The translations under genes were made by a program, and so were the position numbers. From the NCBI RefSeq assembly GCF_000801955.1, contig NZ_JSZO01000016.1, positions 1-64,000 on the forward strand: a DNA stretch of 64,000 bases. The letters are read 5' to 3'. The notes beneath the pieces were generated by a model. That model made no database searches. It was not told where the DNA came from and saw only the letters and a list, made by a program, of their open reading frames with translations. This document shows, piece after piece, positions 23,032 to 33,398 of the stretch. Positions within the stretch are counted from its first letter, which is position 1, and each line of letters opens with the position of its first letter. This DNA is from Ralstonia sp. A12 (GTDB lineage: Bacteria > Pseudomonadota > Gammaproteobacteria > Burkholderiales > Burkholderiaceae).

Positions 23032-23307
23032 TTACTGGCGCTCGCCAGCCCGCTCTAAGGCGGTCAGCACTTCCCACGTGTCAGGGTTGACCTGACACCC
23101 TTCCAGCACCATCGACACAAACGCGCCGATGCCATCCAGAAACCCCGCCCGAAACTCTGGCGGCTGCCGGGCGGCGTAGGCCAGTTCCCAGCGCAGCGTG
23201 TCGGGCCGGAGCTGGCGGTGGGTGCGCAGATCGGTCTGCGTGTAGCGCAGGTAGTCTCGCGCGGCCAGTGCGCCGGTCAGGTAGATGCGGCGTTGGGTTG
23301 GCGTCAT
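23032..23307 (-). CDS. Small hypothetical protein controlled by a C4-like antisense unit
   Basis: A 91-residue soluble protein with a helical N-terminal half (RRIYLTGALAARDYLRYTQT) and an acidic C-terminal part (GFLDGIGAFVSMVLEG). I do not recognise the family. Its ATG overlaps the stop of a 30-codon leader reading frame (ATGA), so its translation probably depends on the leader. It occupies the place that the antirepressor gene takes in phage P1/P7 c4-icd-ant units and that inhibitor genes take in related phage and satellite units. A role as a prophage-derived regulator is inference. Confidence 0.6.
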   Translation of the reverse strand: MTPTQRRIYLTGALAARDYLRYTQTDLRTHRQLRPDTLRWELAYAARQPPEFRAGFLDGIGAFVSMVLEGCQVNPDTWEVLTALERAGERQ

Positions 23308-23396
23308 TGCGCACCTCCTGACCGGCAGGTTTGGGGGCGGCGTGTGGGTGGGGATGGGTAAGACGCGGGGCGGTGCCCGCGTTGGGTGCTTGGCAT
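23304..23396 (-). CDS. Short leader reading frame coupled to the next gene
   Basis: A 30-codon reading frame with ATG at 23396, preceded six bases earlier by a strong AAGGAGG (23407-23401). It is Pro/Arg-rich (MPSTQRGHRPASYPSPPTR) and ends in ATGA shared with the 91-residue gene. The ribosome-binding site sits in a hairpin (CTCCTT pairing with AAGGAG) and is also complementary to the loop of the C4-like RNA upstream. This matches the icd/orfX leader in P1-type c4 operons, whose translation opens the following gene. The peptide itself may have no function. Confidence 0.6.
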   Translation of the reverse strand: MPSTQRGHRPASYPSPPTRRPQTCRSGGAQ

Positions 23397-23448
23397 AGAG
23401 CCTCCTTGGGATTGAAGGAGACCCGCCATCTCGGCGCTAAACGAGGGT

Positions 23449-23526
23449 GGCGGGCCTGACGGTGGTGTTAGCGACCCGGCCCCCAAGGAAACCGGTAGAC
23501 CCGAAGGTCTCACCACCCGGCCCGCC
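23449..23526 (-). ncRNA. C4/CI-like antisense RNA (phage immunity type)
   Basis: On the minus strand nested stems are visible: an outer GGCGGGCC (23526-23519) with GGCCCGCC (23456-23449), an inner GGTGGTG (23517-23511) with CACCACC (23467-23461), and a hairpin AGACC-TTCG-GGTCT (23510-23497) capped by a stable C(UUCG)G loop. The unpaired part contains TTTCCTTGGGG (23491-23481), of which TCCTTGGG is exactly complementary to CCCAAGGA (23410-23403), the ribosome-binding region of the leader frame. GAGACC (23511-23506) is complementary to GGTCTC at 23423-23418. This is the arrangement of the C4 antisense RNA of phages P1/P7 and CI RNA of P4. The family match is my recollection, not a search. Confidence 0.6.
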
Positions 23527-23632
23527 AGAGTAGGCGCGAACGGGAGCAGCAGTGCGATTGCGTGCAGCAATCGTCCGCCCTTGGTGTTTCAGGTCGCTAA
23601 ACCCGGCTACCGTTGGTGCGGCAGCGGTCGCA

Positions 23633-23638
23633 ATTATA
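23633..23638 (-). promoter_or_regulatory. -10 box of the C4-like unit
   Basis: A perfect TATAAT on the minus strand (23638-23633), about 107 bases before the structured RNA. No good -35 box is seen at 16-18 bases. C4 and CI transcripts are made from a constitutive promoter upstream of the RNA, which fits this position. Confidence 0.45.
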
Positions 23639-23702
23639 GCGATGCGGGCGCGGCCCGGATTCTGATTCTTCGGCGTCGATACGGCTGCGAGCCCCGCCGA
23701 CA

Positions 23703-23976
23703 CACTAAGACCCAGCGCTGACTCTCAAAGACCCGATGGTCGACTCTTTTAGACCCGCCGCTGGCTCTCTGCGTCTCGACGCTGGCTCTCTGCGTCTCGA
23801 CGCTGGCGCTAAAAGACCCGAGGGGTGACTCTTTTTGTCTCGGCGCTGGCTCTCCGAGTCTCGGCGCTGTCTCTCAAAGACCCGATAGCCGACTCTTTTT
23901 GACCCGGCACCGGGGCTTTGCGTCTTGGCATCGACTCATCAAGACCCGATGCCGGCTCTCCCACACCCGGCAGTGA
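23703..23976. repeat. Array of about 13 degenerate 20-22-bp repeats
   Basis: Contiguous units with a common pattern: a CTCT start, then GACCCG or GTCTCG in the centre, then a GCTGG-like end. Unit starts: 23721, 23743, 23765, 23786, 23807, 23828, 23850, 23871, 23892, 23914, 23934 and 23956, plus a partial unit at 23703. The units at 23765 and 23786 are identical. Many contain a small dyad, e.g. GACC-CGAT-GGTC and GCGTC-TC-GACGC. There are no unique spacers, so it is not CRISPR. Both strands lack a convincing gene. It lies just upstream of the C4-like promoter. Confidence 0.75.
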
Positions 23977-24140
23977 CATGTCGCGCCTCGCGCGCCGCTC
24001 CCACATCGTCAAGCGCATAGGAGTTTTCGGATTCTGCGGCCAAAACGGCCCTTCGGCCTTGCGGTCACGCGCCTTGCCCGCCACTCTCGCGCGGTCGTGC
24101 CAACCGGCATGACGTGGTTGTTCAACTCATAAGGCATGCA

Positions 24141-24611
24141 ATGACGCAAAACCTGATTTCGTTTGCCCCCACCACCACTGATCTGGCCGCCATTGACGGC
24201 GCGCTCAAGACGCTGGAAGACAAGCTCATCGGCCTGATCGACCTCTCCCCCACCGAGCGCCACACGCTCACCAAAATGGGCGACAAATCTGAAGCCTTCT
24301 GCCGCCAGGCGGTGGAAATCCTCGGCACCAACCCGAACGTGCTGCCGCCCAACTTCAACGTGGCGGAAATGCGCCGCGATCTGGCGGGCTTCGACACGCT
24401 GCGCACGCGCCTCATCCGCATCGAAAAGCTCACTGAAAAAATGCGCGACTCGCAACTTGCGCTGGGCAGCGATGTGATGACCGCCGCACTGGAGGGCTAT
24501 GCCTTGCTGAAGGTGGCCGGCAAGGGTGAAGCGCTGGATACCGCACGCAAGGCGCTGTCGGTGCGGTTCAGCAGCCGCACGGTGAAAAAGGAACCGGCGC
24601 CAGCACAGTAA
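24141..24611 (+). CDS. Hypothetical protein, 156 residues
   Basis: A soluble, almost wholly helical protein (TDLAAIDGALKTLEDKLIGL; RRDLAGFDTLRTRLIRIEKL) with a basic C-terminal tail. I do not recognise the family. AAGG at 24131-24134 supports the ATG at 24141. No signal peptide or membrane segment. The length and pattern resemble small helical-bundle proteins. It is followed by a strong terminator, so it stands alone between the repeat array and the first autotransporter gene. Confidence 0.65.
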   Translation: MTQNLISFAPTTTDLAAIDGALKTLEDKLIGLIDLSPTERHTLTKMGDKSEAFCRQAVEILGTNPNVLPPNFNVAEMRRDLAGFDTLRTRLIRIEKLTEKMRDSQLALGSDVMTAALEGYALLKVAGKGEALDTARKALSVRFSSRTVKKEPAPAQ

Positions 24612-24812: not shown

Positions 24813-27800
24813 ATGAACAAGGTCTATCGCAGCGTGTGGAACGCAACAACGAATACGTGGGCAGCGGCCGCCGAAACGGCCAAGTCGCACAGCAAGGGCA
24901 CGGCACGTGCCGCACGCCGCGCTGTGGTAGCGCTGGCGCTGGGTGGTGCTGCCATGGGCGGCGCGTTTGCTGCTGAAGAGTGCACGACCGACGATGGCCG
25001 CAAGGGCGCGAAAGATTCGGCTGGTGTGTGCACGCCCGCCAGCATGGGCACCATGGGCACGAGCGCCATCGGCACGAGTGGCATTGGTACGAATGCCGCG
25101 CTGGACGATACGTTCATCAAGGTCATCGGCGCTTCCAACGCAAGCCGAGTTGACAGCACTGCCGGCATTGCGATTGGCGGTTCCGCCACCGTTGATGCAA
25201 AGGCCAACAATGGCATTGCCATTGGTTCTGGCGCCTTCGCGAGCACCAGCTATGGCGCACTGGCATTGGGCGGCGGCGCACAATCGAGCGGTGTCGGCAG
25301 CGTTGCGATCGGTACGGGCCAAAGCGGCAAGGCCGGTGCGACTGCATCGGCCGATGGCGCCGTCGCCATCGGTGGTTCCACCAGCAACTTGACGTTTGCA
25401 CAGGCAACGGGAGCGGGCGCCGTTTCGGTAGGGGTCGCGTCAAGCGCCTCGCAACAGGGTGCGGCCGCGCTGGGCGCAGGCGCCAAGGCTTCGCATACGG
25501 ACGCAGTCGCGCTGGGCACAAATTCGGCCACGGATCGCGCTAATTCCGTCTCGGTCGGCAGCGCCACCACGAAACGCCAGATCACCAACATGGCCGCCGG
25601 CACGGCAGCCACGGATGCCGTGAACGTCTCGCAGCTCACGCCGGTCGTGAACGCACTCGGCGGCGGTGCAACGGTCAACGCGGATGGTTCGGTGACCGGC
25701 CCGACCTACAACCTCACCAACGGCGGCATCACCTACAACGTGGAAGACGCGCTCAAGGGCCTGGACAACGGCCTGAGCACCGCCAACGGCAACATCACGC
25801 AGAACACGACCGACATCACCAACCTCCGCAACGGCACGATTGGTCTGGTGCAGCAGGATGCGACCACCAAGGACATCTCCGTGGCGGCGGCAACTGGCGG
25901 CGACAAGGTTGACTTCACCGGCACCGACGGCGTTCGCAAACTGACGGGTCTGGCCAACGGCAACGTGGCCGCAGGCAGCACTGATGCAGTGACGGGTGAC
26001 CAACTGAACACGACCAACGTGAACGTGGCCAACCTGGATGGCCGTGTGACCAAGAACGAAGGTGACATCACCACGATCAACACCAACGTGACCAACCTGG
26101 ATGGCCGCATGACGGTTGCCGAAGGCAACATCACGCAGAACACGACCGACATCACCAACCTGCAAGCGCAGGTGGGTAACGGCACGATTGGTCTGGTACA
26201 GCAAGCGGGCGCAGGTGCAGACCTGACCGTGGGCGCTGCCACCGATGGTGCCAACGTCAACTTTGCTGGTACGGCGGGCGACCGCAAGCTGGTGGGTGTG
26301 GCCAACGGTGATGTTTCGGCAACGAGCAAGGAAGCGATCAACGGTTCGCAACTGCACGGCGTGTCGCAAAGCGTGGCAGACGCCATCGGCGCGGGCTCGT
26401 CGGTCAACCCGGATGGTTCGATCACGCAACCGAGCTTTACCGTGGGTGATGGCAACGGTGGCACGACGATCGTGCACAACGTGGGCGATGCCGTGACGAA
26501 CCTGGATGGCCGTACGACCACCAACGAAACCAACATCACCAACCTGCAGCAGCAAGTGGGTAACGGCACGATTGGTCTGGTGCAGCAAGCCGGTGCGGGT
26601 GCAAACCTGACCGTGGGTGCCGCTACCGATGGCAAGGCTGTCGACTTCACGGGCACCGAAGGCGCTCGCAAGCTGACGGGCATTGCCAACGGCGACGTGG
26701 CCGCAGGCAGCACCGATGCGGTGACGGGTGACCAACTGAACACCACCAACCTGAACGTGGCCAACCTGGATGGCCGTGTGACGAAGAATGAAGGTGACAT
26801 CACCAACATCCGTAACGACCTGAGCAACGGCTCGATCGGCCTGGTGCAGCAAGCCGGCCCGAATGCCGATGTGACGGTGGCTGCGGCCACGGGCGGCACG
26901 GTCGTCAACTTTGCAGGCACCGCGGGTGACCGCCGCTTGAACGGCGTGGCCAACGGTGTGGCGGATAACGATGCTGTGTCCATCGCCCAGATGAAGGCCA
27001 TGGGCCTGTGGGATCCGAACGCCAACCTGCCGATGGCAGCCGTGGTGTATGACGACATCACCCTGAGCAGCGTGACGTTTGGTGGCACGGGCGGCACGGT
27101 GCTGAACAACGTGGCGCCAGGCCTGATCGCTTCGGGCAGCATGCAGGCGGTCAACGGTGGCCAGTTGTTTGACCTGGAACAGAAGATGGGCAGCTACTAC
27201 TCGTACCTGGATGGCCGTGTGACGAACCTTGAGCAGAACGGCGGCGGCAGCGGTGGTGGTTCGGGCGGCCCGGTGGACTTCAGCGGCTCGGGCAAGGACA
27301 GCACGCAAGTGGGCGCGGGCGCCAGTGCTTCGGGTGACAGCAGCACGGCAGTCGGCAACGGTTCGGCCGCCTCTGGCGAAAACAGCACGGCCATCGGCCA
27401 AGGCTCCAGCGCCACGGGCAGCAACTCCACCGCCATCGGTCAGGGCTCGCGTGCAGATCGTGATGATGCTGTGTCGTTCGGCTCGGAAGGCAACGAGCGC
27501 TACCTCACCAACGTGAAGGACGGCGTGCGTGACACCGATGCAGTGAACAAGGGCCAGCTCGACCGCGCCATTGGCGGACTGCAGAATCAGGTCGACGATC
27601 TGTCGCGCAACGCCTACGCCGGCATTGCCGCAGCCACCGCGCTGACGATGATTCCGGGTGTGGACCCGGGCAAGAACCTGTCGCTGGGTATTGGTAGCGC
27701 GAGCTACAAGGGCTACCAGGCCGTTGCAATCGGCGGCGAGGCGCGCATCACCCAAAACATCAAGATGAAGGCGGGCGTGGGCCTGTCCAGCGGCGGCACG

Positions 27801-27833
27801 ACCGTCGGCGCAGGCGCGTCGTACCAGTGGTAA
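24813..27833 (+). CDS. Trimeric autotransporter adhesin (YadA/Hia-like), 1006 residues
   Basis: A surface adhesin secreted by the type Vc route, predicted to form a trimer on the outer membrane. Residues 1-54 are an extended signal peptide (ESPR: MNKVYRSVWNATTNTWAAAA, then a hydrophobic core ending GGAFAAEE). A YadA-like head with IAIG/VAIG repeats spans about 105-245, then a neck (TDAVNVSQL), and a stalk of NITNL/NLDGRVT coiled coil with four GLVQQ repeat modules. Short head-type repeats return near 830-890 (SGENSTAIGQGS). The last ~65 residues form the membrane anchor ending in VGAGASYQW, with terminal Trp. Two Cys (CTTDD, VCTPAS) near the mature N-terminus are unusual. Paralogue of the next gene. 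Confidence 0.92.
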   Translation: MNKVYRSVWNATTNTWAAAAETAKSHSKGTARAARRAVVALALGGAAMGGAFAAEECTTDDGRKGAKDSAGVCTPASMGTMGTSAIGTSGIGTNAALDDTFIKVIGASNASRVDSTAGIAIGGSATVDAKANNGIAIGSGAFASTSYGALALGGGAQSSGVGSVAIGTGQSGKAGATASADGAVAIGGSTSNLTFAQATGAGAVSVGVASSASQQGAAALGAGAKASHTDAVALGTNSATDRANSVSVGSATTKRQITNMAAGTAATDAVNVSQLTPVVNALGGGATVNADGSVTGPTYNLTNGGITYNVEDALKGLDNGLSTANGNITQNTTDITNLRNGTIGLVQQDATTKDISVAAATGGDKVDFTGTDGVRKLTGLANGNVAAGSTDAVTGDQLNTTNVNVANLDGRVTKNEGDITTINTNVTNLDGRMTVAEGNITQNTTDITNLQAQVGNGTIGLVQQAGAGADLTVGAATDGANVNFAGTAGDRKLVGVANGDVSATSKEAINGSQLHGVSQSVADAIGAGSSVNPDGSITQPSFTVGDGNGGTTIVHNVGDAVTNLDGRTTTNETNITNLQQQVGNGTIGLVQQAGAGANLTVGAATDGKAVDFTGTEGARKLTGIANGDVAAGSTDAVTGDQLNTTNLNVANLDGRVTKNEGDITNIRNDLSNGSIGLVQQAGPNADVTVAAATGGTVVNFAGTAGDRRLNGVANGVADNDAVSIAQMKAMGLWDPNANLPMAAVVYDDITLSSVTFGGTGGTVLNNVAPGLIASGSMQAVNGGQLFDLEQKMGSYYSYLDGRVTNLEQNGGGSGGGSGGPVDFSGSGKDSTQVGAGASASGDSSTAVGNGSAASGENSTAIGQGSSATGSNSTAIGQGSRADRDDAVSFGSEGNERYLTNVKDGVRDTDAVNKGQLDRAIGGLQNQVDDLSRNAYAGIAAATALTMIPGVDPGKNLSLGIGSASYKGYQAVAIGGEARITQNIKMKAGVGLSSGGTTVGAGASYQW

Positions 27834-28235: not shown

Positions 28236-31200
28236 ATGAACAAGGTCTATCGCAGCGTGTGGAACGCAACAACGAATACGTGGGCAGCGGCCGCTGAAAC
28301 AGCCAAGTCGCGCAGCAAGGGCACGGCACGTGCCGCACGCCGCACTGTGGTTGCGCTGGCGCTGGGTGGTGCTGCCATGGGCGGCGCATTTGCTGCTGAA
28401 GAGTGCACGACCGAAGACGGTCGCAAGGGCACGACGGATACCGCTGGCGTGTGCACGCCCGCCAGCATCGGCACCATGGGCACGAGCGCCATCGGCACGA
28501 GTGGCATTGGCACGAATGCCGCGCTGGATGATACGTACATCAAGATCACTAACAGCGGGGGCACGGCAAGCGTAAATAACAGCGCGTCCGGCATTGCAAT
28601 TGGCCCTAGCGCTACCGTTGGCAGCCCAACTATCAGAACCGGCAACGGCCTCGCCATTGGTCAGGGCGCCCAGTCACTCGGCACCTATGGATCGATGGCA
28701 TTGGGCGGCGGCACACTATCGAGTGGTGTCGGCAGCGTTGCGATCGGTACGGGCCAATCCGGCAAGTACGGTGCAACCGCATCGGCCGATGGCGCCATCG
28801 CCATCGGTGGTGCCACCAGCACCTTGACGTACGCACAGGCAACGGGGGCGGGCGCCGTTTCGGTAGGGATCGCGTCAAAGGCCTCGCAACAGGGTGCGAC
28901 TGCCCTGGGGCGTCAGAGTGAGGCCAGCGCAGAAAATGCCGTGGCACTGGGTAGCGAGGCGAAGGCAACCGGAACCAGCGCAACCGCCCTCGGCAACTTG
29001 GCCAACGCTGCCGCCAACGCGGTCGCGATCGGCGCCTCTGCCAACGCGGGAACCGTTGCCGGCAACATTGCCGTGGGCAACCTCGCAAACGCCTCTGGCG
29101 CCCGCAGCATTGCGACCGGCGTCAACGCCGAAGCCTCGGGTGCCAACTCGATCGCCCTGGGCAGCACCGACAACGACGCATTCCGGGCACGTGCCACGGG
29201 GTCAAACGCCATTGCAATGGGCGTGAATGCGCGCGGCACTGCTGACAATGGCATCGCCGTGGGCCAAAACGCCGACGTTCAGGCCACTGCCACGGGCTCG
29301 GTCGCCTTGGGTTCTGGCTCGATCGCCAGCGCCGCCAACACCGTGTCGATCGGCAATACCACCACGCAGCGCAAGCTCGTCAACATGGCCGCCGGCACGC
29401 AAGCTACCGACGCCGTGAACGTGTCGCAGCTCACCCCGGTCGTCACCGCCCTGGGCGGCGGCGCCAGCATCGACCCGAACACGGGTGCCGTCACCGGCCC
29501 GACGTACAACCTCACCAACGGCGGCCCGCAAACCACCGTGGGCGGGGCATTGGCTGCGCTCGACAATGGCCTGAGCACCGCCAACGGCAACATCACGCAA
29601 AACACGACCGACATCACCAACATCCGCAACGGCCTGAACAACGGCACGATCGGCCTGGTGCAGCAAGACGCGACCACCAAGGACATCAGCGTGGCGGCAG
29701 CAACTGGCGGCAACAAGGTCGACTTCACCGGCACCGACGGCGTTCGCACGCTGACGGGTCTGGCCAACGGCAACGTGGCTGCGGGCAGCACCGACGCAGT
29801 GACGGGTGACCAACTGAACACGACCAACGTGAACGTGGCCAACCTGGATGGCCGTGTCACCAAGAACGAAGGTGACATCACCACGATCAACACCAACGTG
29901 ACCAACCTCGACGGCCGTGTAACGACTGCCGAAGGCAACATCACGCAGAACACGACCGACATCACCAACATCCGCAACGGCCTGAACAACGGCACGATCG
30001 GCCTGGTGCAGCAAGACGCGACCACCAAGGACATCTCCGTGGCGGCGGCAACGGGTGGCGACAAGGTCGACTTTACCGGCACGGACGGCGTTCGTACGCT
30101 GACCGGTCTGGCCAACGGCAACCTGGCTGCGGGCAGCACCGACGCAGTGACGGGCGACCAACTGAACACGACCAACGTGAACGTGGCCAACCTGGATGGC
30201 CGCGTGACGGTTGCCGAAGGCAACATCACGCAGAACACGACCGACATCACCAACATCCGCAACGGCCTGAGCAACGGCACGATCGGCCTGGTGCAGCAAG
30301 ACGCGACCACCAAGGACATCTCCGTGGCGGCGGCAACGGGTGGCGACAAGGTTGACTTCACCGGCACCGACGGCGTTCGCACGCTGACGGGTCTGGCCAA
30401 CGGCAACGTGGCTGCGGGCAGCACCGATGCGGTGACGGGCGACCAACTGAACACGACCAACGTGAACGTGGCCAACCTGGATGGCCGTGTGACCAAGAAC
30501 GAAGGTGACATCACCACGATCAACACCAACGTGACCAACCTCGATGGCCGCGTGACGGTTGCCGAAGGCGACATCATCGACATCCGCAGCCAACTGGGCA
30601 ACGGCTCGATCGGCCTGGTGCAGCAAGATGCAACCACCAAGGACATCTCCGTGGCGGCGGCAACGGGTGGCGACAAGGTCGACTTCACGGGCACGGACGG
30701 CGTCCGCAAGCTGACGGGTCTGGCCAACGGCAACGTGGCTGCGGGCAGCACCGATGCGGTGACGGGCGACCAACTGAACACGACCAACGTGAACGTGGCC
30801 AACCTGGATGGCCGTGTGACCAAGAACGAAGGTGACATCACCACGATCAACACCAACGTGACCAACCTCGATGGCCGCGTGACGGTTGCCGAAGGCGACA
30901 TCACCGACATCCGCAGCCAACTGGGCAACGGCACGATCGGCCTGGTGCAGCAGGATGCGACCACCAAGGACATCACCGTGGCGGCGGCAACTGGCGGCGA
31001 CAAGGTCGACTTTACCGGCACGGACGGCGTTCGTACGCTGACTGGCGTGGCCAACGGCGCCGTCTCGGCCACCAGCCAAGACGCGATCAATGGTTCGCAA
31101 CTGCACGGCGTGGCCGACAGCGTGGCCTCGGCCATCGGTGCGGGCTCGACGGTCAATCCGGATGGCTCCATCTCGGCCCCGAGCTTCACGGTTGGCGATG

Positions 31201-33398
31201 GCAACGGTGGCACGACCATCGTCCACAACGTGGGCGATGCGGTGACCAACCTGGATGGCCGTACGACCACCAACGAAACCAACATCACCAACCTGCAGCA
31301 GCAAGTGGGGAACGGCACGATTGGCCTGGTGCAGCAGAACGCAACCACCAAGGACATCACCGTGGCGGCGGCAACTGGCGGCGACAAGGTCGACTTTACC
31401 GGCACGGACGGCGTTCGCACGCTGACCGGCGTAGCCAACGGCGCGGTCTCGGCCACCAGCCAAGACGCGATCAATGGTTCGCAGCTGCACGGCGTGGCCG
31501 ACAGCGTGGCCTCGGCCATCGGTGCGGGCTCGACGGTCAATCCGGATGGCTCCATCTCTGCCCCGAGCTTTACGGTTGGCGATGGCAAGGGTGGTACGAC
31601 CATCGTCCACAACGTGGGCGATGCGGTCACGAACCTGGATGGCCGTACGACTACCAATGAAACCAACATCACGCAGAACACGACCGACATCACCAACCTG
31701 CAGCAGCAAGTGGGCAACGGCACGATTGGTCTGGTGCAGCAAGCGGGCGCAGGTGCAGACCTGACCGTGGGCGCTGCCACCGATGGTGCCAACGTCAACT
31801 TTGCTGGTACGGCGGGCGACCGCAAGCTGGTGGGTGTGGCCAACGGTGATGTTTCGGCAACGAGCAAGGAAGCGATCAACGGTTCGCAACTGCACGGCGT
31901 GTCGCAAAGCGTGGCAGACGCCATCGGCGCGGGCTCGTCGGTCAACCCGGATGGTTCGATCACGCAACCGAGCTTCACGGTTGGCGATGGCAACGGTGGC
32001 ACGACCATCGTCCACAACGTGGGCGATGCCGTGACGAACCTGGATGGCCGTACGACCGTCAACGAAACCAACATCACCAACCTGCAGCAGCAAGTGGGTA
32101 ACGGCACGATTGGTCTGGTGCAGCAGAACGCAACCACCAAGGACATCACGGTGGCGGCGGCAACGGGTGGCGACAAGGTCGACTTCACGGGCACCGACGG
32201 CGCTCGCAAGCTGACGGGCATTGCCAATGGCGACGTGGCCGCAGGCAGCACCGATGCGGTGACGGGTGACCAACTGAACACCACCAACGTGAACGTGGCC
32301 AACCTGGATGGCCGTGTGACGAAGAACGAAGGCGACATCACCAACATCCGTAACGACCTGAGCAACGGCTCGATCGGCCTGGTGCAGCAAGCCGGCCCGA
32401 ATGCCGATGTGACGGTGGCTGCGGCCACGGGCGGCACGGTCGTGAACTTTGCAGGCACCGCGGGTGACCGCCGCTTGAACGGTGTGGCCAACGGCGTGGC
32501 CGATAACGATGCAGCTTCGATCGCGCAACTCAAGGCCATGGGCCTGTTCGACCCGAACACCAACCTGCCGATGGCAGCCGTGGTGTATGACGACATCACC
32601 CTGAGCAGCGTGACGTTTGGTGGCACGGGCGGTACGGTGCTGAACAACGTGGCGCCGGGCCTGATCGCTTCGGGCAGCATGCAGGCGGTCAACGGTGGCC
32701 AGTTGTTTGATCTGGAGCAGAAGGTCGGCAACTACTACTCGTACCTGGATGGCCGTGTGACGAACCTTGAGCAGAACGGCGGCGGCAGCGGTGGTGGTTC
32801 GGGCGGCCCGGCCGACTTCAGCGGCTCGGGCATGGACAGCACGCAAGTGGGTAAGGGTGCTGATGCCTCGGGTGATTACAGCTCGGCAGTCGGCCAGGGT
32901 GCGGTGGCATCGGGCAGCAACAGCTCCGCGATCGGCCAGGGTTCGAGCGCATCGGGTTCGAACAGCTCGGCCATCGGCCAGGGTGCAAATGCGTCGGCTG
33001 ACAATGCCGTTGCTCTGGGCCAAGGTTCGGTGGCGGATCGTGAAGGCACCGTGTCGGTCGGTTCGGCAGGCGCTGAGCGTCAGATCACCAACGTTGCAGC
33101 CGGTACGGCACCAACGGATGCTGTGAACGTGCAGCAGATGAACAACTCGGTGCGCAGCGCACGCCAAGACGCCATGGGCGGCGTGGCCGCAGCGATGGCG
33201 GTGGCAGGCTTGCCGCAGTCGTCCATGCCGGGCCGCACGTTCATGGCCATCTCGGGCAGCACGTACGGTGGTGAGTACGGCACGGCCGTTGGCGCGTCTT
33301 ACATGACCCGCGACGGCAAGTGGACGGTCAAGGCCGCGATCAACACCAGCAGCCGCGGTGAAGTTGGCGCGGTGGTGGGCGGCGGCTTCTACTGGTAA
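28236..33398 (+). CDS. Trimeric autotransporter adhesin (YadA/Hia-like), 1720 residues
   Basis: A larger paralogue of the previous gene. The extended signal peptide (1-54) differs at only a few residues. The YadA-like head (about 105-375) is longer, with many AxAIG/SVALGSG-type repeats, then a neck (TDAVNVSQL) and a long stalk built of nine GLVQQ modules, each paired with AAATGGDKVDFTG, STDAVTGDQLNTT and NLDGRVT segments. Head-type repeats return near 1545-1625 (SGSNSSAIGQGS). The anchor (about the last 70 residues) ends GAVVGGGFYW and is clearly different from that of the first paralogue (MAVAGLPQSSMPGRTFMAIS). Expected to mediate adhesion, autoaggregation or biofilm formation. Repeat blocks are nearly identical at DNA level, so copy number may vary between strains. 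Confidence 0.92.
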   Translation: MNKVYRSVWNATTNTWAAAAETAKSRSKGTARAARRTVVALALGGAAMGGAFAAEECTTEDGRKGTTDTAGVCTPASIGTMGTSAIGTSGIGTNAALDDTYIKITNSGGTASVNNSASGIAIGPSATVGSPTIRTGNGLAIGQGAQSLGTYGSMALGGGTLSSGVGSVAIGTGQSGKYGATASADGAIAIGGATSTLTYAQATGAGAVSVGIASKASQQGATALGRQSEASAENAVALGSEAKATGTSATALGNLANAAANAVAIGASANAGTVAGNIAVGNLANASGARSIATGVNAEASGANSIALGSTDNDAFRARATGSNAIAMGVNARGTADNGIAVGQNADVQATATGSVALGSGSIASAANTVSIGNTTTQRKLVNMAAGTQATDAVNVSQLTPVVTALGGGASIDPNTGAVTGPTYNLTNGGPQTTVGGALAALDNGLSTANGNITQNTTDITNIRNGLNNGTIGLVQQDATTKDISVAAATGGNKVDFTGTDGVRTLTGLANGNVAAGSTDAVTGDQLNTTNVNVANLDGRVTKNEGDITTINTNVTNLDGRVTTAEGNITQNTTDITNIRNGLNNGTIGLVQQDATTKDISVAAATGGDKVDFTGTDGVRTLTGLANGNLAAGSTDAVTGDQLNTTNVNVANLDGRVTVAEGNITQNTTDITNIRNGLSNGTIGLVQQDATTKDISVAAATGGDKVDFTGTDGVRTLTGLANGNVAAGSTDAVTGDQLNTTNVNVANLDGRVTKNEGDITTINTNVTNLDGRVTVAEGDIIDIRSQLGNGSIGLVQQDATTKDISVAAATGGDKVDFTGTDGVRKLTGLANGNVAAGSTDAVTGDQLNTTNVNVANLDGRVTKNEGDITTINTNVTNLDGRVTVAEGDITDIRSQLGNGTIGLVQQDATTKDITVAAATGGDKVDFTGTDGVRTLTGVANGAVSATSQDAINGSQLHGVADSVASAIGAGSTVNPDGSISAPSFTVGDGNGGTTIVHNVGDAVTNLDGRTTTNETNITNLQQQVGNGTIGLVQQNATTKDITVAAATGGDKVDFTGTDGVRTLTGVANGAVSATSQDAINGSQLHGVADSVASAIGAGSTVNPDGSISAPSFTVGDGKGGTTIVHNVGDAVTNLDGRTTTNETNITQNTTDITNLQQQVGNGTIGLVQQAGAGADLTVGAATDGANVNFAGTAGDRKLVGVANGDVSATSKEAINGSQLHGVSQSVADAIGAGSSVNPDGSITQPSFTVGDGNGGTTIVHNVGDAVTNLDGRTTVNETNITNLQQQVGNGTIGLVQQNATTKDITVAAATGGDKVDFTGTDGARKLTGIANGDVAAGSTDAVTGDQLNTTNVNVANLDGRVTKNEGDITNIRNDLSNGSIGLVQQAGPNADVTVAAATGGTVVNFAGTAGDRRLNGVANGVADNDAASIAQLKAMGLFDPNTNLPMAAVVYDDITLSSVTFGGTGGTVLNNVAPGLIASGSMQAVNGGQLFDLEQKVGNYYSYLDGRVTNLEQNGGGSGGGSGGPADFSGSGMDSTQVGKGADASGDYSSAVGQGAVASGSNSSAIGQGSSASGSNSSAIGQGANASADNAVALGQGSVADREGTVSVGSAGAERQITNVAAGTAPTDAVNVQQMNNSVRSARQDAMGGVAAAMAVAGLPQSSMPGRTFMAISGSTYGGEYGTAVGASYMTRDGKWTVKAAINTSSRGEVGAVVGGGFYW
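29620..32400 (+). repeat. Stalk repeat region of the second autotransporter
   Basis: Nine coding repeats, each opened by NGTIGLVQQ or NGSIGLVQQ, of two interleaved types: one with QDATTKDISVAAATGG and STDAVTGDQLNTT, the other with AVSATSQDAINGSQLHGV. Long stretches are identical between units and also between this gene and its neighbour: by eye 31737-31975 equals 26199-26437 over 239 bases. Confidence 0.85.

Follow-up and report, generated by a model that had tools for sequence, protein, structure and literature searches.

A chromosomal family of C4-type antisense RNA units in Ralstonia, with separate loop-target pairs and a probable role in switching small helical proteins

The window analysed here, a stretch of 64,000 nt from Ralstonia sp. 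A12 (contig NZ_JSZO01000016.1, positions 1 to 64,000), carries on its minus strand a compact unit in which a TATAAT box is followed by an isrK-like stretch, a C4 RNA, a 30-codon leader ORF and a gene for a 91-residue protein, designated family A (Table 1). Degenerate tandem repeats of 21, 64 and 85 bases occupy positions 23716-23901, between the C4 unit and a divergent gene designated family F. Two adjoining large adhesin genes lie on the plus strand (24813-27833 and 28236-33398); their products are nearly identical over the N-terminal 60 residues, and the first is YadA-type by Pfam. The remaining scanned neighbours were assigned by Pfam to fimbrial chaperones, fimbrial proteins, an usher, two-component proteins, a GGDEF protein, methyltransferases and a flavoprotein; taken together, the named products are fimbrial, adhesin, two-component and metabolic. 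PHROGs matches in the window were mostly function-less and fell on the same host-type proteins, with two 'tail' labels placed on adhesins. No prophage was recognised around the unit among the window ORFs scanned, and scans of phage, plasmid and IMG/VR collections found no relatives of family A. An initial sequence-only reading had described the unit as having no phage genes around it, a description that fits both the host-type Pfam assignments and the empty collection searches.

Table 1. Features of the C4 unit and its divergent neighbour in the window
Feature	Position	Strand	Basis or remark
TATAAT -10 element, presumed unit promoter	23633..23638	-	read from sequence
isrK-like leader RNA 5' of C4 (seqA/a1-b1 region)	23551..23625	-	sub-cut-off Rfam match
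c4-a1b1 (RF03163) match	23586-23639		Rfam 24.4 bits, cut-off 46.7
Upstream contact for C4 junction, TTAGCGACCTG vs CGGGTCGCTAA	23590..23600	-	11 contiguous pairs, score 10.5
Weak upstream P3-loop contact, CCAAGGG	23578..23584	-	7 pairs, mean score 6.2
C4 antisense RNA	23443..23532	-	Rfam RF01695, 69 bits
Variable P3 loop of C4, putative specificity element, TTTCCTTGGGGG	23480..23491	-	contact scores, duplex energies
P3-loop target TCCCAAGGAGG, over leader Shine-Dalgarno; also hairpin loop and 3' arm	23401..23411	-	
Leader ORF, 30 codons, GHRPASYPSPP motif	ATG 23396 to TGA 23304	-	
Family A gene, 91 residues, predicted four-helix protein	23032..23307	-	ATG at 23307
ATGA overlap, leader stop / gene start	23307-23304	-	
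Family F gene, 165 residues, divergent, frequent C4-A partner	24114..24611	+	

The structured RNA had been called a C4/CI-type antisense RNA, and this was borne out by Infernal. The window C4 scored 69 bits (E 2.5e-11) with Rfam model RF01695, for which the gathering cut-off is 45, and among 4227 Rfam families C4 alone reached its cut-off anywhere in the 64 kb. Rfam draws C4 as stems P1, P2 and P3, the loop of P3 being the variable part. A purpose-built model (R1) comprised 31 C4 sequences, six of them from other genera, and gave 92 bits for the window C4, which is itself a member. Across these 31 sequences 92.6 % of cells in the P1, P2 and P3 stems were paired, 15 of the 27 pairs had changed on both sides (reached by 0/500 shuffles), and a CC-A-CC string at the 3' end was invariant or nearly so. 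By these measures the window RNA is a member of the known Rfam family C4, whose stems appear to be preserved by compensatory change. The isrK model (RF01394) also matched in the window, at 34.8 bits (E 6.4e-6 in a 501-base search; cut-off 50), and an IsrK-like RNA may precede C4 in this unit. Among 20 sampled relatives, isrK was matched at E<=0.01 in seven and c4-a1b1 in four, none above cut-off. In Burkholderia cenocepacia, isrK and C4 are made as one transcript (excerpt of PMC4603805).

The sequence-only reading had dealt with a lone unit; it is one of 12 in its genome and part of a genus-wide family. Ten of the 12 C4 RNAs of Ralstonia sp. A12 were above cut-off, and the 31-sequence model located 197 C4 RNAs in 16 Ralstonia genomes, with 2-23 in each. 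C4 was present in all 16 of these genomes vs 11 of 45 genomes of other genera from the family and order. In a class-level sample of 369 genomes including Ralstonia sp. A12, the best 11 candidates per genome placed C4 in 24 genomes, with at least 11 in Ralstonia sp. A12, at least 10 in G334 and at least six in the next; these counts from the best 11 candidates left unsupported the idea that Ralstonia is the C4-richest genus. G334 belongs to another family of the same class, and its downstream context was read at one locus, L285.

Downstream of the 197 C4 RNAs we identified a family A gene in 116 cases, a gene of the unrelated family B in 22 and neither in 59. Viewed from the genes, 108 of the 113 full-length copies of family A were preceded by C4 (116 of 134 when fragments were included), and so were 22 of 25 family B matches. 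We read 187 of the 197 places, the unread ones being six of the 59 with neither gene and four of the 116 with family A; two weaker matches brought the reading list to 189. De-duplication by sequence reduced 166 matches to 150 distinct ones, and omission of L041:426 (spurious, 20 bits) and L042:1-37 (contig edge) left 148 units. The 53 'neither' places that were read held antirepressor-like genes, a 135-residue class, a 64-residue class and gene-less copies. By eye, the genes downstream at L246, L259, L266, L273 and L276 look like Bro-N-like phage antirepressors, and these are probably prophage C4 units in Ralstonia. The 64-residue class (L247, L256, L271, L274 and similar) has an N-terminal EYQKGV..AREFLR stretch resembling family A, and mostly displays the upstream contact only.

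All 16 Ralstonia genomes yielded family A and the 45 others did not; our searches outside Ralstonia returned nothing save one MAG labelled Candidatus Wolfebacteria, perhaps contamination. The 91-residue protein had no match in Pfam, PHROGs or NCBIfam, and the antirepressor called for in a P1-type operon was not found in it. AlphaFold2 predicted four helices for family A (mean pLDDT 91.2), with no match at E 0.001 or better among viral structure models; solved structures likewise gave no match at E 0.001 or better to the A or B predictions. The median dN/dS was 0.21 (471 equal-length pairs, dS 0.1-1), a mark of purifying selection on family A. An arrangement akin to a type I toxin-antitoxin system, in which the small protein would harm the cell once C4 was lost, seems to us rather unlikely: the RNA silences, as we read it, a small gene in cis, and in phage systems AntQ, raised via AnrP, kills cells (excerpt of PMC4825925) and Icd blocks cell division (excerpt of PMC8201110), yet the predicted four-helix protein has no similarity to any family in the searched libraries.

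Eight of the 16 Ralstonia genomes and, by a weak match, one of the 45 others carried family B (about 75-85 residues), which was not found in phage, plasmid or viral-contig collections. Its AlphaFold2 model consists of two long helices and a short one (pLDDT 87.9). Ralstonia sp. A12 has five C4-linked family B genes of 75-83 residues (L063, L064, L066, L067 and L068), and in profile comparison the family bears a very faint resemblance to Rop, an RNA-binding protein (E 0.085-0.37). Family F was likewise present in all 16 Ralstonia genomes and in 0 of 45 others; 24 of its 35 full copies lay within 2.5 kb of a C4 RNA (23 divergent, 22 beside family A) and 11 did not. Beyond the family F gene, content varied from place to place in the 13 loci read. 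The 165-residue protein had no Pfam or PHROGs match, and a relative with 36 % identity is encoded on a plasmid of Candidatus Thiodictyon syntrophicum.

A TATAAT on the minus strand was present as had been stated (23638-23633), and the box recurs in the family: 83 of 112 family A units had an exact copy 85-130 nt 5' of C4, vs one of 112 in a control stretch 30-75 nt 5' of C4. None of the 22 family B units had it 85-130 nt 5' of C4. The overlap of leader and gene as ATGA was likewise confirmed at 23307-23304, and coupling of this kind is close to universal in the 91 family A units with a leader contact (defined below). In 40 of them leader and gene form a single reading frame that encodes one longer protein, and in 50 of the 51 unfused cases the leader stop overlaps the gene start (by -4 in 38, -10 in 10 and -1 in 2), so that 90 of 91 are fused or overlapping. 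Read from overlap and fusion, leader and gene appear to be coupled in the manner of P1. The sequence S-Y/F-P-S-P-P was found in 84 of the 91 leaders and, because its codons change synonymously, the motif appears to be kept as a peptide; as a speculation, its proline run could stall ribosomes. An SYPSPP peptide near the leader start was also observed at L012, from another genus.

The sequence-only reading also held that the C4 loop is complementary to the ribosome-binding site of the leader. This complementarity was present, with a score of 9.5 over 11 pairs, and the predicted duplex of the window loop with its own target (-16.0 kcal/mol) was stronger than that with the best of four other leader targets in the same genome (-11.6). 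Another unit of Ralstonia sp. A12 carries the loop TTGCCGTGAGTG. Taken alone the window match is only moderately unusual, its score being equalled by 62 of 5000 dinucleotide shuffles; over the whole family, loop-target matching is far beyond chance by permutation. Among 112 distinct family A units with 53 distinct loops, compared with no pre-selection of units, the mean score of own pairings was 7.86 vs 5.61 for cross pairings in the downstream region and 8.25 vs 5.59 in the upstream region, and each own fit was reached by 0/2000 permutations. Family B (22 units, 19 loops) displayed the upstream contact (own 8.08 vs cross 5.28; 0/2000 permutations) and, as a group, no downstream one (4.67 vs 4.78; 1553/2000).

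A leader contact of at least 7 was present in 91 of the 112 family A units, of which 62 also had an upstream loop contact of at least 7; among the 21 units lacking a leader contact at this level, 12 had the upstream one. In family B, contacts of at least 7 were found upstream in 20 of 22 units and downstream in one (L166, 8.5). Judged by these scores, the leader mechanism leaves some units uncovered, namely 21 of family A and nearly all of family B. Where the leader contact was present, the start codon lay 2-11 nt past it in 88 of 91 units. Within genomes, the own target had the lowest or tied-lowest duplex energy in 85 of 90 units and an advantage of more than 2 kcal/mol in 74 of 90, in a comparison whose units were pre-chosen by an own leader contact of at least 7, which favours 'own'. 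The upstream P3-loop contact of the window unit (CCAAGGG) appears weak, its score of 6.2 lying under the best cross score of 8.0.

Two further elements had been proposed for the leader. A hairpin enclosing the ribosome-binding site is indeed predicted, since the leader folds that way and the arm is present in 64 of 91 units vs 25.7 expected from shuffles. A second C4 contact, GAGACC/GGUCUC, did not hold up: the leader match was 4.58 for own and 4.79 for cross pairings, and GAGACC is part of the covarying P2 stem. A better candidate for a second contact joins the junction 3' of P3 to the upstream stretch TTAGCGACCTG (11 pairs, score 10.5). Over the 112 family A units this contact averaged 7.4 vs 6.4 for reversed strings, suggestive of a modest family-wide signal. 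Altogether, the likeness drawn earlier to the logic of P1 c4-icd-ant and P4 CI is supported, in that a loop facing a ribosome-binding site recurs over the family together with a coupled leader.

Flank comparison placed 86 of the 91 leader-contact units at 34 chromosomal sites, the five without long flanks being left out of the grouping. Fourteen sites were common to two or more genomes, and at 12 of these the loops of the species differed. With one unit per loop per site, and again with units pre-chosen by their own leader contact, each loop fitted its own target better than that of the alternative allele in 50 of 60 ordered allele pairs, equally well in 10 and worse in none. A loop type was never repeated in one genome among the 86 units compared (four family A places being unread): none of 129 same-loop pairs fell within one genome vs 8.4 expected when all loops were shuffled (0/10000 shuffles gave 0). 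Shuffling within shared sites lowered the expectation to 1.92 and gave 0 in 1223/10000 shuffles, and a strong claim of loop exclusion beyond site structure was therefore dropped. Because most units of one genome have their own loop and target, we infer that most would be switched largely independently.

These data also bear on the alternative that C4 and its targets no longer function and are what remains of decaying prophages or satellites. In its favour, phages are where C4 is best known, there are broken and gene-less copies, what looks like a decayed leader follows some of the gene-less ones, and some of the 'neither' copies precede antirepressor-like genes. Against this, C4 is kept at nearly all full-length family A genes (108 of 113), the stems covary, dN/dS is 0.21, loops and targets change together within a site, and no relatives of A or B were found in phages, plasmids or viral contigs. 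We consider a functionless remnant very improbable.

Gene-less C4 RNAs were observed in a common arrangement in L037, L050 and L051 (species G014, G003 and G009), where one site common to all three holds a C4-A unit and, after it, a pair of gene-less C4 RNAs with loop types found in sister species. The gene-less RNAs of the three arrays scored 77-91 bits. Each of the six matched, at 8.5 or more, a family A target in a sister species; five had no family A target above 7.5 in their own genome, one of these fitting an own-genome unit outside family A at 9.0, and the sixth, L051:1208, scored 8.5 within its own genome. In total 14 C4 RNAs, three array RNAs included, were listed as lacking gene A or B and having both contacts below 6.5; among them L257 falls in the 64-residue class and two are weak matches, L271:1783 at 28 bits and L245:1188 at 24 bits. 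Seven of the 14 (L050:1996, L037:1991, L051:1079, L240, L265, L254:941 and L244) reached 8 or more with a target from another genome, with own-genome scores of 7.0 or less in five, 9.0 for L037:1991 and 9.5 for L254:941; the remaining seven fitted no target at 8. The other array RNAs, L050:2127, L051:1208 and L037:2120, fell outside the 14 owing to nearby 6.5-7.5 matches and were scored separately with L082:896, a gene-less C4 that is among the 112 units and outside the 91, its family A gene lying 561 nt on behind another C4.

One reading of these copies is a genus-wide system of RNA specificity in which a site retains its gene family while its loop-and-target type is swapped between species, and gene-less C4 RNAs of other types, stored beside units, serve as a heritable memory, silencing incoming units of the same type. 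This we hold to be doubtful, as we do its extension, in which stored C4 RNAs would be comparable, at DNA uptake, to the orphan immunity genes of polymorphic toxin clusters. Plain gene loss is a fair alternative origin, because an apparent decayed leader comes after the final RNA in each array. The same copies matter for a purely cis-acting attenuator, in which the upstream stretch, C4 and the leader would refold within one RNA and no free C4 would act elsewhere. Both contacts do lie within one transcript, and intramolecular refolding would fit the upstream contacts seen in family B (20 of 22 units) and in 12 of the 21 family A units without a leader contact. Well-structured gene-less C4 RNAs (77-91 bits) beside units are less easily accommodated and would be explained by use in trans or by recent gene loss, and C4 and CI act as antisense RNAs in P1 and P4 (excerpts of PMC5320573 and PMC4825925). 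We regard a purely cis-acting device as improbable.

We instead favour, at a probability of about 0.78, a host-borne C4 switch of the P1/P4 type that has been multiplied, is kept by the host and holds a small helical protein off. The parts visible in the sequences are the RNA family, its stems, the promoter box, the leader contacts, the coupling and purifying selection; from these we infer a course of expression, RNase P cleavage, action in trans, Rho involvement, direction of control and protein function as follows. A single promoter would yield a transcript spanning, in this order, the IsrK-like segment, C4, the leader and the 91-residue gene, from which C4 would be excised, presumably by RNase P as in P1 and P7. 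The P3 loop would then pair with the leader ribosome-binding site, reached in the exposed loop of the occluding hairpin, and the junction would pair with the upstream stretch at the same time. Leader translation would stop and the coupled ribosomes could not reach the overlapping gene; the C-rich, G-poor leader might then be open to Rho. Because a blocked leader would deny coupled ribosomes the gene, the 91-residue protein would be made only if C4 were scarce, titrated or unprocessed. Several steps have counterparts in phages: C4 is cut by RNase P in P1 and P7, C4 and its target come from one promoter in P1, where C4 represses, and CI of P4 acts through termination. Rho entry sites are C-rich and G-poor, and the base content of the leader (C 0.42, G 0.23) compares with C 0.32 and G 0.30 in the gene.

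The sign of control could be more complex than plain repression, as in Gifsy-1, where a comparable layout works via IsrK-driven activation (excerpt of PMC4825925). The isrK-orf45-anrP module of that prophage has the order isrK-like RNA, C4-like RNA, short coupled ORF and gene (excerpt of PMC4825925); in the Ralstonia unit, unlike in Gifsy-1, the isrK match is sub-threshold, the product has no antirepressor match and no antQ adjoins in the window. Were activation of the IsrK type at work, a short upstream RNA would open the leader in trans and C4 would mainly brake this. The similar order of parts, from isrK-like RNA through C4 and an overlapping leader to the gene, and the strong self-hairpin over the ribosome-binding site are consistent with such activation, whose mechanism is demonstrated in Salmonella (excerpt of PMC4825925). 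The window isrK match is sub-cut-off, however, with E<=0.01 reached in only seven of 20 sampled units, and no U-run was seen after the isrK-like stretch in the window; we treat this activation as possible, with the odds against it.

The host-borne switch resembles c4-icd-ant (immI) of P1 and P7 in its C4 fold, in the loop facing a leader ribosome-binding site and in the coupling of leader to gene. The Ralstonia units differ in being chromosomal, in their many copies whose loop-target pairs are separate, in a product that no search identified as an antirepressor, and in having no recognisable phage genes among the scanned neighbours. Contacts both upstream and downstream of the RNA recall seqA and seqC of P4 CI (excerpt of PMC4825925); unlike in P4, no replication genes were seen at the Ralstonia unit, and family B and part of family A show the upstream contact only. 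In Acinetobacter baumannii, C4-like RNAs are abundant and look RNase P-processed (excerpt of PMC5320573). Its Group 1 sRNAs similarly comprise many variable-loop C4-like RNAs per genome (21 sRNAs, 15 full-length), but the excerpted account gives them no assigned or neighbouring targets (PMC5320573), whereas most Ralstonia RNAs have a matched neighbouring region and are associated with two protein families. We found no published account of C4 units in Ralstonia in the open-access literature. New, in our view, are the families carried by the host, their separate pairs of loop and target and the exchange of these pairs at fixed sites, a class with the upstream contact alone, and C4 copies lacking a gene.

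In sum, C4 RNAs, known as parts of phage immunity, are here multiplied, selected and diversified in host chromosomes. The natural swaps of loop and target together are in effect compensatory-mutation experiments, and paralogues with known own targets would provide a clean set in which to test the specificity of small antisense RNAs. If the memory reading were true, gene-less C4 RNAs would silence incoming units of their type. The Ralstonia units could also hint at where the targets of the C4-like RNAs of Acinetobacter might be sought.
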